Assembly: GCA_937858365.1 (NCBI GenBank)
Contig: CALLYK010000129.1
Coordinates: forward strand, 1 to 36,283
Direction: 5' to 3'
Length of the DNA stretch: 36,283 nt
DNA from: an uncultured Isosphaeraceae bacterium
GTDB taxonomy: Bacteria; Planctomycetota; Planctomycetia; Isosphaerales; Isosphaeraceae
The notes below the pieces were generated by a model, which did no database searches, had not been told where the DNA came from, and worked only from the letters and a program-made list of their open reading frames with translations. Of this stretch, positions 32,340-35,979 are shown in pieces. The number at the start of each line of letters is the position of its first letter. Position 1 is the stretch's first letter. Made by a program: the position numbers and the translations under genes.

Positions 32340-32933
32340 ATGGCCCCTCATAAGCGACGCACCCTTACGGCTCTCGGCGCGGGCGTCGCGCTCTTGGCGG
32401 TCCTGGGCTGGATACTCTGGGACGACCGGGTCCCTCGGCGCCTCGCGGTGGTGGTGCCCAACCAGGTATACCGGGGGGCCTGGCAGTCCCCGAAGGCCTT
32501 GCGCCACTTGATCACAAGTCATCACATTCGCACGATCATGACTTTGACGGCGATCAGCGTTGACGATCCCAAGTACGTCGCCCAGAAGCCGGTCGTCGAT
32601 GCGACGGGCCTCACCTGGGTCATCGTGCCCATGCGCGGTTCGACCGCGACGCCTGCGCAGCTGGAAGAAGCCGCGGACCTCATCGCCGACCCAGCCCGCC
32701 GGCCGGTCTTCTTCCATTGTGTCGGCGGCCATCATCGTAGCAATCTCGTACAGATGGCTTATCGCATCCGCCACGAGGGCTGGGACGCCGATCAGGCTTG
32801 GGAGGAAGTCCGCGCTTTCCCCTGGACCCGACCCGAGGCCGACGCCGACCAGCGCGATCGGGCCCTCATCAACGCCTTCGCGGCAACTCAGCGCGCGAAA
32901 GCTCGACTCGTCGCCGGGAGGGCCACGCCTTGA
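32340..32933 (+). CDS. Membrane-anchored Cys-based (dual-specificity-like) protein phosphatase
   Basis: GGAGG precedes the ATG at 32340. The 197-residue product has a membrane helix near the start (about 9-27, LTALGAGVALLAVLGWILW) and a CX5R phosphatase loop, FFHCVGGHHRSN, with Cys127 and Arg133, after VVPNQVYRGAWQSPKALRHL, the entry strand of Tyr/dual-specificity phosphatase-like domains. The Cys acts as nucleophile on phosphoester substrates (proteins, inositol phosphates or sugars; unknown here). The double His in the loop is unusual. Its stop overlaps the TTG of a second phosphatase gene (TTGA, 32930-32933). Confidence 0.8.
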   Translation: MAPHKRRTLTALGAGVALLAVLGWILWDDRVPRRLAVVVPNQVYRGAWQSPKALRHLITSHHIRTIMTLTAISVDDPKYVAQKPVVDATGLTWVIVPMRGSTATPAQLEEAADLIADPARRPVFFHCVGGHHRSNLVQMAYRIRHEGWDADQAWEEVRAFPWTRPEADADQRDRALINAFAATQRAKARLVAGRATP

Positions 32934-33655
32934 CCTTCGCTCGCAGAATCCGCTGGGGCGTCCGCTTGATGGTGCTGATGGCCTTGGTCCCATCCGTTTG
33001 GCTCTTCGCTCGATGGTGGAGTGGGAACGTGGACACGGTCATCCCGGGACGCTTCTATCGTTCGGCCCAACTCGGCCCCGATCATCTCACAGGGCTAATC
33101 GCTCGCCACGGCTGCCGCACCGTGCTCAATCTACGCGGTCCGAACCCATCGGCACGCTGGTATCGCGAGGAACGCGACGCCACCCTTCAAGCCGGCGCCA
33201 CCCAAGTTGATTTGCCCATCGCATCGGACCTGTGGCTCTCGAAGGCGCAAGCACAAGCGTTGATGGAGGTCCTTGACTCGGCCGAGAAGCCCATGTTGGT
33301 CCATTGCCAATGGGGGGCCGAAAGAACGGGTCTGGCCTCTGCGTTTGTGGTGCTGCTTCGTCCGGGGGGCACGCTGGACGAGGCCGAACAGTGTTTCTCG
33401 ATACGATACCTATTCGCGCCAACTCGTGATGGGCTGACGATGCTCGGGCACGTCACGGCGTATCGGCGATGGCTTGCCAACCAGGGTTGGCAACACTCCC
33501 CAGAACGGTTTCGCCATTGGGTGCGCCATGAATATCAACCTGGGCCCGGAAGTCCCGAGTATTGGCCCTACAATCCGAACCCCCTCATGGTCGTGACCAG
33601 CCCCATCGGTCCGCCGCGGACCTTGGCCGTTCGAGAAGAAATGAGCAGACATTGA
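32930..33655 (+). CDS. Second membrane-anchored Cys-based protein phosphatase
   Basis: The start is the TTG at 32930, overlapping the previous stop and preceded by GGGAGG; a longer in-frame start at 32798 lies inside the first phosphatase and is rejected. The 241-residue product has a membrane helix (about 10-27, GVRLMVLMALVPSVWLFA). The phosphatase loop VHCQWGAERTG has Cys126 and Arg132 (CX5R) and follows VIPGRFYRSAQLGPDHLTGL and CRTVLNLRGPNP. This resembles DSP-like plant/fungal and bacterial phosphatases of the Siw14 group. It shares the general plan of its neighbour (N-terminal anchor, PxxxYR strand, CX5R), suggesting an old tandem duplication. Confidence 0.82.
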   Translation: MTFARRIRWGVRLMVLMALVPSVWLFARWWSGNVDTVIPGRFYRSAQLGPDHLTGLIARHGCRTVLNLRGPNPSARWYREERDATLQAGATQVDLPIASDLWLSKAQAQALMEVLDSAEKPMLVHCQWGAERTGLASAFVVLLRPGGTLDEAEQCFSIRYLFAPTRDGLTMLGHVTAYRRWLANQGWQHSPERFRHWVRHEYQPGPGSPEYWPYNPNPLMVVTSPIGPPRTLAVREEMSRH

Positions 33656-33673: not shown

Positions 33674-34081
33674 ATGGCCGAGAGCTACGACATTCCGATT
33701 CGGGTCCGCTACGCCGAGACCGACCGCATGGGCCTTCTCCACCACGCGAACTACTTCATCTACTTCGAAATGGGCCGCACGGAACTGCTTCGTCAACGCG
33801 GAGTGTCTTATCGCGAAATCGAAGACGCTGGATTTCTGCTCGTGATCGTCGAGATCGGCTGCAAGTTCCGCAAACCGGCCCGCTATGACGACCTGCTGAG
33901 CCTGCGCACGACCGTCCAGCGCGTCACGCACGTGAAGATCGTCCATCGCTACGAACTCTTCCGCGACGGCGAGCTCTTGGCCGAAGGGCAATCTACACTT
34001 GCTTGTGTCGACCGCGAAGGTCGCCCGCGACAGTTGCCTCCCGAACTCCGTGGGGGCGACGACCGGCCAAACCCGAGTTGA
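33674..34081 (+). CDS. Acyl-CoA thioesterase, YbgC/4HBT hotdog family
   Basis: GGAGGAAGCGCC precedes the ATG. The 135-residue product has the normal length and the family motif at the N-terminus: RVRYAETDRMGLLHHANYFI, with Asp17 as the probable catalytic residue and the HxxNY element, then YFEMGRTELLRQRG and KFRKPARYDDLLSLRTTVQR. These enzymes hydrolyse acyl-CoA or acyl-ACP thioesters in the cytosol; YbgC homologues are linked to Tol-Pal and phospholipid turnover, but tol-pal genes are not in this window. It lies between the phosphatases and a glycosyltransferase on the same strand. Confidence 0.9.
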   Translation: MAESYDIPIRVRYAETDRMGLLHHANYFIYFEMGRTELLRQRGVSYREIEDAGFLLVIVEIGCKFRKPARYDDLLSLRTTVQRVTHVKIVHRYELFRDGELLAEGQSTLACVDREGRPRQLPPELRGGDDRPNPS

Positions 34082-34158
34082 CCCTTCCGGGAACTTGGTC
34101 CATGATGCCGCGCCTTGTAAGGCAAGCCACGACGAACCTCCAGGATGGGGAGCACTTG

Positions 34159-34959
34159 ATGCGAACGGATGCGACACCTCGCCTTCTCGTCTCGCTCGCG
34201 ACTTACAACGAAGCGGGCAACCTTCGGCCTCTGGTCGAGACGATCCATCAATACGCCCCTCATGCCGAGGTCCTGGTCATTGACGACGCTTCTCCCGACG
34301 GGACGGGCCAAATCGCCGACGCCCTCCACGCCGAGGGTCGAGTGGCCCATGTCATCCACCGGGCGGGGAAGCTGGGCCTGGGGACCGCGGTGCTGGCCGC
34401 GATGCGTTACGCGATCGCGGAGCGCTTCGATTTCCTGATCAATCTCGACGCCGACTTCAGCCATCCCCCCCGTTTCATCCCCGCGCTTCTGGCCGGGATG
34501 GACCGCAACGACGTGATGATCGGCTCGCGCTACGTGCCCGGAGGCGGCGTGGAGGGTCAGTTCGGTCTCAAGCGCAAGTTCATGAGCACGGGCATCAATC
34601 TCTACGCTCGACTGCTTCTGGGTCTATCCACCAAGGACAACAGCGGCTCGTACCGCTGTTATCGGGTGAGCAAGCTCGCGCGGATCGACCTCGACCGGGT
34701 CCGATCGCGCGGCTACTCGTTCATGGAGGAGGTGCTCTATCACTGCCGGCAGGTCGGCTGCAAGATGGGCGAGACCCCCATCCTCTTCGAAAACAGGCGA
34801 TCCGGGACGTCGAAGATCAATCAGATGGAAGCGCTGAAGGCCCTGGCGGTCATCGCCAGGATCGGCGTGGAAAGGCTGGCAGGCGGACCGAGGCGTCTAG
34901 CGACACCCGGTCCCGGTCCCCATCGGATCATGGCCCGGAACGTCGCCCGGGCGAAATGA
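34159..34959 (+). CDS. Family 2 glycosyltransferase, polyprenol-phosphate mannosyltransferase type
   Basis: The ATG at 34159 follows GGGGAG; a longer frame from 34003 overlaps the thioesterase and is rejected. The 266-residue product has the GT-A motifs: LVSLATYNEAGNLRPLVETI, VLVIDDASPDGTGQIADAL, the metal-binding DAD in LINLDADFSHPPRFIP, GSRYVPGGGVEGQ and NSGSYRCYR, ending near IGVERLAGG. The enzyme transfers a sugar (mannose in DPM1-type members) from a nucleotide sugar to a polyprenyl phosphate at the membrane. It lacks the C-terminal membrane helices seen in some bacterial members. A terminator hairpin lies 17 bases downstream. Confidence 0.88.
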   Translation: MRTDATPRLLVSLATYNEAGNLRPLVETIHQYAPHAEVLVIDDASPDGTGQIADALHAEGRVAHVIHRAGKLGLGTAVLAAMRYAIAERFDFLINLDADFSHPPRFIPALLAGMDRNDVMIGSRYVPGGGVEGQFGLKRKFMSTGINLYARLLLGLSTKDNSGSYRCYRVSKLARIDLDRVRSRGYSFMEEVLYHCRQVGCKMGETPILFENRRSGTSKINQMEALKALAVIARIGVERLAGGPRRLATPGPGPHRIMARNVARAK

Positions 34960-35002: not shown

Positions 35003-35323
35003 TTAGATGAGGTCATGCTCGCGCACGGTGATGTAAACTTCTTGACAAGTCTCCGCGATCCGGTCGCCCAGGCCCTGGTGTTTGCTTTCCAGTTGGGCCG
35101 AGTACATGCTGAGCACGCGACAAAGGAAGGCGGCCTGCCCCGGTTCCGTCTCCGCGCTGAGTTGGCCGAGCGAGTCTTCGATCTGGTCGGCCAGGTAGAG
35201 GATGAACTGGGCCTGACCCTTCAGTTCCGCCAGCACGCGCGTGAACTCGGGTGGACTCGTCACGGGGGCGGGTTGGGTCTCGATCAGTTCCTCGTTCAAA
35301 GGCATTTCGGTAGCGGTGGTCAT
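35003..35323 (-). CDS. Small helical protein, paralogue of its upstream neighbour
   Basis: The 106-residue product begins MTTATEMPLNEELIETQPAP. Its core is helical: LKGQAQFILYLADQIEDSLG, AETEPGQAAFLCRVLSMYSA. An ungapped alignment of 44 residues with the neighbouring product (35320-35631) gives 12 identities, with matched positions QF..YL, AE..xG, FL..xxxM and a final L. No signal or membrane segment is seen, and no family is recognised. The ATG overlaps the upstream stop (ATGA), so the two are translated together, perhaps as a hetero-oligomeric helical bundle. Confidence 0.65.
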   Translation of the reverse strand: MTTATEMPLNEELIETQPAPVTSPPEFTRVLAELKGQAQFILYLADQIEDSLGQLSAETEPGQAAFLCRVLSMYSAQLESKHQGLGDRIAETCQEVYITVREHDLI

Positions 35324-35631
35324 GCCGGGCCTCCGTTGACGCGCGGGGCCGGGACAGCGCCGATCGCGGCCTCGATTTGACCGCAGAGCTCACCCATCAT
35401 GCGCATGTTCTCGCACTCGACGGACAGGTTCGAGGCGTGCATTTCGATGAGTTGGCGCAGGAAGATGCGCGTGCCGGCGTCGTGTTCGGCCTGATAGCGT
35501 TCCACATCGGCGACGGCCGCCCGGACGAGGTAGTCCATGAACTGGAGCTTCCCTCGAATGGAGGTGCAGACTTTATGAAGCTGGGCGGGCCCGGCTTGAT
35601 CGGGCACATTGGCGATGGCCAGCGATGACAT
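35320..35631 (-). CDS. Small helical protein, first of a coupled paralogous pair
   Basis: The 103-residue product starts MSSLAIANVPDQAGPAQLHK and has the helical core IRGKLQFMDYLVRAAVADVE, AEHDAGTRIFLRQLIEMHAS and ECENMRMMGELCGQIEAAIG. It aligns without gaps over 44 residues to the gene that follows (see 35003). Amphipathic helices with few charges on one face suggest a coiled or bundled dimer. Function and family are unknown. It is the first gene of the pair, and only 350 bases without recognised genes lie upstream. Confidence 0.65.
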   Translation of the reverse strand: MSSLAIANVPDQAGPAQLHKVCTSIRGKLQFMDYLVRAAVADVERYQAEHDAGTRIFLRQLIEMHASNLSVECENMRMMGELCGQIEAAIGAVPAPRVNGGPA

Positions 35632-35979
35632 CCGTTTCTCCCCGTCCTTGGTTAGGCTGGTCTAGATGCAGGGTGAATCCCGGCACTGAGGGAGATTACC
35701 GAGCGTCGCCCGGACGAGCAAGGCGGATTCGCGCGACGATGACCGAGTGGACCACTCGGACGATGGGTCCGCCCGGTCCCGGCCCCAACGCCCAGGCCCC
35801 ACGGGAGCGAACATGGTGAAGACCTCCCGCTCCCGCGCGAGAAATGACGGCGAGGCGATGGCTGGGGCCGTGCGATTGGTCTTGGGCGCGGATAGGATGC
35901 GATGATGCGTCGCGGGTCGCGAGTTTCCGCGGCCTGCCCCGCTGTTTCCACTTCAGACGCTCGCCGGAGTCACTCCACA
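35632..35979. other. Intergenic region without a recognised gene
   Basis: This stretch separates the paralogous pair (-) from the ThuA-like gene (+). Short frames on both strands have poor composition (for example Arg/Gly/Pro-rich minus-strand text). No RNA gene, strong hairpin or clear promoter pair was seen; it presumably carries divergent promoters. Confidence 0.4.

Follow-up and report, generated by a model that had tools for sequence, protein, structure and literature searches.

Overlapping genes for two small, predicted helical paralogues as candidate subunits of an Isosphaeraceae complex

Overlapping genes that encode paired paralogous subunits are a known arrangement, and several described systems resemble the locus reported here. 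WXG100/ESX proteins (PF06013), such as EsxA/EsxB, carry a W-x-G motif at the hairpin turn and a YxxxD/E signal. Encapsulated ferritins, represented by Rru_A0973 of Rhodospirillum and its relatives (PDB 5da5, 5n5f and 7s8t), have conserved Glu/Glu/His ferroxidase residues, which are E32, E62 and H65 in Rru_A0973. Long helical hairpins also occur in the ING4/ING5 dimerisation domain, the C-terminal domain of Cep57 and Med11/Med22 (4afl, 8ibh and 3r84). Rop provides the comparison for a small regulatory helical bundle that binds nucleic acid.

We analysed two genes, A and B, in a 36,283-nucleotide stretch of Isosphaeraceae DNA, referred to in full as the window. Like WXG100/ESX pairs, they are tandem paralogous genes of about 100 codons with modelled helical hairpins and an expected heterodimer, but they do not match PF06013, lack the WXG turn, contain almost no Trp and have no recurrent same-strand partner. 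The encapsulated ferritins share with them a two-helix hairpin of similar length and, in A, the spacing of one Glu/Glu/His set; however, the residues are not invariant in A and are missing from B, and 10 of 10 family genomes have no encapsulin. The ING4/ING5, Cep57 and Med11/Med22 hairpins are among the best structural matches (Z ~8-10), but their Foldseek E values are 0.1 or worse and such Z scores are generic for helical bundles. The pair is best called an unrecognised family of familiar design, namely paired paralogous helical subunits from overlapping genes.

Gene arrangement and ancestry of A and B

Both open reading frames (106 and 103 residues) were confirmed on the minus strand where the original prediction had placed them, and their overlap is indeed ATGA (Table 1). 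B precedes A, immediately adjacent, in all 39 pairs examined. Counting from the A start nearest to a 4-base overlap, as our script did, the genes overlap by four bases in 34 of 39 pairs (GTGA in one) and by a single base (TGATG) in four, all from one divergent genus (g5) and two of them near-identical in sequence. The remaining pair (L061/L103) has no overlap, and its A gene starts with GTG at +35.

Table 1. Features of the A-B locus in the window
Feature	Position	Strand	Remark
Gene B (upstream)	35320..35631	-	ORF, 103 aa
Gene A (downstream)	35003..35323	-	ORF, 106 aa
ATGA overlap	35320..35323	-	A start codon, B stop codon
GGAGG	35330..35334	-	Shine-Dalgarno-like site for A, within last codons of B
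GGGGAG	35638..35643	-	Shine-Dalgarno-like site 5' of B, upstream sequence
Glycosyltransferase family 2 gene	34003-34959	+	Pfam E 1.9e-26
ThuA-like gene start		+	other flank of the pair; grouped with relatives

In 36 of 39 pairs the final codons of B contain GGAG or GGAGG, and in two a bare GGA. This embedded ribosome site explains well why Gly-Asp or Gly-Gly recurs close to the C-terminus of B. No Shine-Dalgarno-like site for A was found in L061, where the overlap is lost too, and this one pair speaks against coupling. ATGA overlaps are common in bacteria and are no proof of coupling. As an arrangement, the coupled genes that had been proposed are supported by the conserved overlap and by the GGAG(G) at the end of B.

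The proposed relatedness of A and B also stood up. The 44-position ungapped match reported between them extends to 55 positions (A24-78 against B15-69, 14 identities) and includes the shared QF..YL, AE...G, FL and M. Over the helical core, the two window proteins score 66 ungapped and 69 gapped. None of 1000 composition-preserving shuffles (gapped; mean 24.3, maximum 45) reached the observed score, nor did any of 1000 that kept the hydrophobic pattern (gapped; mean 25.6, maximum 54), so the similarity exceeds that of all shuffled helical cores in both sets. When each A is compared with the B of its own genome (39 pairs), z-scores have a median of 8.5 (range 4.1-15.5), or of 6.9 (range 3.0-13.8) with the hydrophobic pattern kept. 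Profile-profile comparison of A with B gives E=1.6e-8 and a probability of 95.5% over 83 columns, and single-sequence searches cross over, with A finding B orthologues and B finding A orthologues down to E ~6e-6.

In a tree of both cores, the A and B sequences fall into separate clades (support 1.0). Within each half, genus g5 is a clade of its own (support 1.0 in A and 0.90 in B); the remaining B sequences form a clade with support of only 0.53. Since the g5 clade lies inside both A and B, the duplication predates the family radiation sampled here. The old duplication suggested by the original prediction is supported by the profile-profile match, the shuffle scores and the A/B tree.

Distribution and neighbourhood of the pair

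A joint profile matched exactly twice in 43 of the 45 Isosphaeraceae genomes, once to A and once to B, and not at all in the other two; no third copy and no solitary A or B was seen in any of the 45. The single window sequences, searched against 99 relatives with the own genome included in the count, gave the same figure, A and B each matching 43 of the 45 family genomes. In one pairless genome (G041), the close glycosyltransferase neighbour is cut at the end of contig C522, beside the expected site of the pair, so the absence coincides with a contig break. The other (G014) also lacks a close copy of the glycosyltransferase neighbour (best identity 33% or less); here the absence is either loss or an assembly gap.

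Beyond Isosphaeraceae, 252 genomes of the class gave one weak, interrupted match to the B profile and nothing convincing, and 390 genomes of the phylum gave no match to the A and joint profiles. These large searches score 11 to 16 candidates per genome, so very distant relatives could be missed. Three weak candidates were taken as chance: this interrupted B-profile match, partial and with an in-frame stop, in G532 (E 0.006), an out-of-family match in G098 (E 0.0096) that the A profile did not recover at E 1, and an apparent third paralogue in G011 (C1:1540728, E 0.001) recovered neither by the A profile (E 1) nor by the joint profile. Viral contigs scanned with B held no relative, and plasmids searched for the pair held none.

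Named records with the pair belong to Singulisphaera, Paludisphaera, Aquisphaera and Tautonia, and many further metagenome-assembled genomes that carry it are labelled Isosphaeraceae, Planctomycetales or less precisely. A look at other planctomycetes, as originally suggested, thus places the pair in nearly all sampled Isosphaeraceae and nowhere convincingly beyond; judged by these profiles, it is restricted to the family within our sample. It should also be noted that three records with the pair (L130, L131 and L133) are titled Candidatus Kuenenia stuttgartiensis; because the corresponding genomes are placed in the window's family, these titles are probably wrong.

With a convergent neighbour on one side and a divergent one on the other, the pair is a free-standing two-gene unit. 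ThuA-like genes (a name we take from the sequence of the neighbour) lie upstream in 25 of 39 neighbourhoods and the glycosyltransferase lies downstream in 23; neither is ever on the strand of the pair. A gene for what is presumably an ExeA-like ATPase, judging from its sequence, occurs in 23 and is on the opposite strand in 22. In these counts, several of the 39 contigs end too near the pair for judging. The idea of a fixed third neighbour was not sustained, since none of the three genes that recur in the 39 neighbourhoods does so on the strand of the pair, and the conserved opposite-strand genes look like plain synteny. One pair (L079, in genome G019) has none of the three common neighbours, and its A is far more diverged than its B.

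Two other parts of the window deserve mention. Between 36061 and 36283, the likeness of the ThuA-like frame to its relatives is lost, judged by eye, at about 36150. From there to the end of the contig, the minus strand resembles part of an RND efflux pump (Pfam ACR_tran matches at E 0.0017, which is below cut-off), and the contig may end in a chimeric join. At 32340-33655, overlapping plus-strand ORFs (32340-32933 and 32798-33655) both contain an HC.....R motif, which we take to be phosphatase-like, and are perhaps another tandem paralogue pair.

Predicted structures and conserved faces

No Pfam family scored above cut-off for A or B of the window or for 21 orthologues of each, and no NCBIfam family reached cut-off for A or B. 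As far as these two collections go, the family is unrecognised, as had been supposed. Matches below cut-off were scattered over the orthologues; the most recurrent, GDH_HM2 (8/21 B, best E 0.022) and Chlamy_inclu_1 (3/21 A, best E 0.01), were treated as noise. Against PDB sequences, the A profile matched designed proteins 4D2 (E 7.9e-5) with no single stretch passing, which we ascribe to helical composition, and the B profile found nothing below E 0.9. In the literature, no title or abstract opening was found that concerns the A-B pair.

A and B were each modelled as a single chain. The A model has helices at 24-57, 61-82 and 85-105 (mean pLDDT 82.8, pTM 0.63) and a disordered N-terminal tail, with residues 1-17 below pLDDT 50; tail length is highly variable among orthologues. 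The B model is a helical hairpin (15-48 and 52-91) with a disordered N-terminus (mean pLDDT 80.4, pTM 0.59). Block pLDDT exceeds 90 in the central core of both. The possibility that A and B belong to unrelated folds finds no support in these single-chain models, both of which are predicted to be long helical hairpins, a common shape. Foldseek against solved structures gave no E below 0.1 and returned generic hairpins for both models; solved encapsulated ferritins were listed at E ~0.6 or worse amid many unrelated hairpins. The best structural Z, ~9-10, is what the tool says to expect of helical bundles. The A tails of several orthologues (e.g. L066, L069, L075 and L078) contain a short LG....GR-like motif, which the window's A lacks.

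The conserved cores read KGQAQF..YLADQIE.......E.D....FL...L.MY..QLE in A and IRGKLQFMDYL..A..D..R...E.D.GTRIF..QL..MH in B. Helix 1 of each protein has a complete 3-4 heptad seam across orthologues: F27, L31, L34, A38, I41, A45, I48, L52 and L55 in A, and L18, V21/C22, I25, L29, M32, V36, A39, V43 and Y46 in B. Each position is at least 90% hydrophobic in 39 orthologues, with the exception of C22 of B (72%). Off this seam lies a predicted second face, F40/Y43/L44 in A and F31/Y34/L35 in B, which is the QF..YL motif and is 100% hydrophobic in the 39 orthologues. Such a seam together with a second hydrophobic face gives the look expected of a hairpin obliged to pack on another.

Neither protein has a stretch with the hydrophobicity of a membrane span, the highest 19-residue Kyte-Doolittle means being 0.72 (A) and 0.82 (B). 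Polar residues invariant in 39 orthologues include Q39 and D46 of A and R26, Q30, D33, D42, R45, E49, T54, Q60 and H65 of B. No known active site was recognised in either.

Readings of the A-B pair

We put the probability at roughly 55% that A and B are subunits of one obligate, soluble, cytoplasmic helical-bundle complex found only in Isosphaeraceae. Conserved order and overlap, paralogy and the lack of a recurrent same-strand third gene argue for it, and strict co-occurrence, the two hairpin models and the common second hydrophobic face are consistent with it. One pair in nearly every sampled family genome, with none convincing in sampled relatives outside, suggests a family-specific two-part complex, and the cytoplasmic location is suggested by the lack of membrane-span hydrophobicity.

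In such a complex, each subunit would be an antiparallel helical hairpin closed by its own helix 1 seam, and docking through the second faces would join the hairpins in a four-helix bundle or a multiple of such a bundle. B would be translated first, with A re-initiating in the ATGA overlap from the ribosome site inside the end of B. Re-initiation would keep the subunits near 1:1 and let A and B pair during synthesis. The role is probably that of a scaffold or adaptor, a guess of lower standing than the complex itself, and the variable disordered tail of A might then serve as its flexible arm.

Co-evolution gives a mixed picture. The distance correlation is 0.80 (r) for A with B and 0.72 for A with the neighbouring ThuA-like protein; controlling for both neighbours leaves a partial A-B correlation of 0.43 (78 genome pairs), and controlling for the glycosyltransferase leaves one of 0.62 between A and ThuA. 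Because the A-ThuA correlation is comparably strong, this mirror-tree test does not single out A and B. Unlike what matched co-evolution would give, A has drifted in G019 (46% identical to the window's A) and B has not (71% identical to the window's B).

This uneven divergence would suit A and B assembling as homo-oligomers apart from each other, in related but different roles and with the operon setting dosage only, as would the fact that each subunit alone has heptads and a second face suited to self-association. We consider that arrangement unlikely, since 43 of 45 genomes have a single A and a single B, and in all 39 pairs examined the genes are neighbours in a constant order, overlapping in 38 of them.

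A dedicated export or chaperone pair, forming a secreted hairpin heterodimer like EsxA/EsxB, appears quite improbable. The tandem hairpin pair of about 100 residues per protein is there, and genuine WXG100 genes do exist elsewhere in the same genomes (at least one above-cut-off match in 10/10 family genomes), but neither the family model nor the W-x-G turn was found in A and B, and the pair is absent from PF06013 matches in its own genome. Trp is absent from both window proteins and occurs in only 2/39 A and 4/39 B orthologues, the turn is E.D.G, the window proteins have no YxxxD/E signal, and no same-strand neighbour recurs. The window's own genome carries a tandem WXG100 gene pair over the family cut-off at G000:C249:231-814.

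It is highly improbable that the proteins form a small regulatory bundle binding nucleic acid, possibly their own leader RNA by analogy with Rop. A short G+C-rich hairpin does abut the B ribosome site in several genera (L067, L068, L071, L075, L076, L080, L085, L088, L091 and L096), and B leaders have a mean stem score of 11.9 (37 scored, not independent) against 8.1 +/- 0.8 in shuffles. However, the score is 0 in 7 of 37 leaders (the window's own and six others), fold z-scores over the whole leader are mostly weak, and the proteins of the window are both acidic, with net charges of -11 and -2.

We give almost no weight to a diiron hairpin like that of encapsulated ferritins: A has E49, E79 and H82 at the Rru_A0973 spacing, and that protein is in the Foldseek lists for both models (only at E ~0.6 or worse), but H82 is kept in 34/39 A orthologues (Tyr in 4, Asn in 1) and E79 in 38/39 (Gly in 1), B has no equivalents at those columns, and encapsulin PF04454 is absent from 10/10 family genomes by a search that finds it in 3/14 control genomes.

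Returning to A and B as subunits of one complex, it is conceivable, if doubtful, that one duplication at the base of the Isosphaeraceae gave a family-defining complex, kept as one A and one B since, that serves some aspect of cell organisation specific to these cocci, which form chains and aggregates. Curated models in Pfam and NCBIfam do not cover the A-B sequence family, which behaves as a signature of the whole bacterial family within our sample. A and B can act as marker proteins for placing metagenome bins in Isosphaeraceae. Their invariant polar residues are natural mutation targets, and the pair offers a small, testable target for what distinguishes Isosphaeraceae from other planctomycetes.
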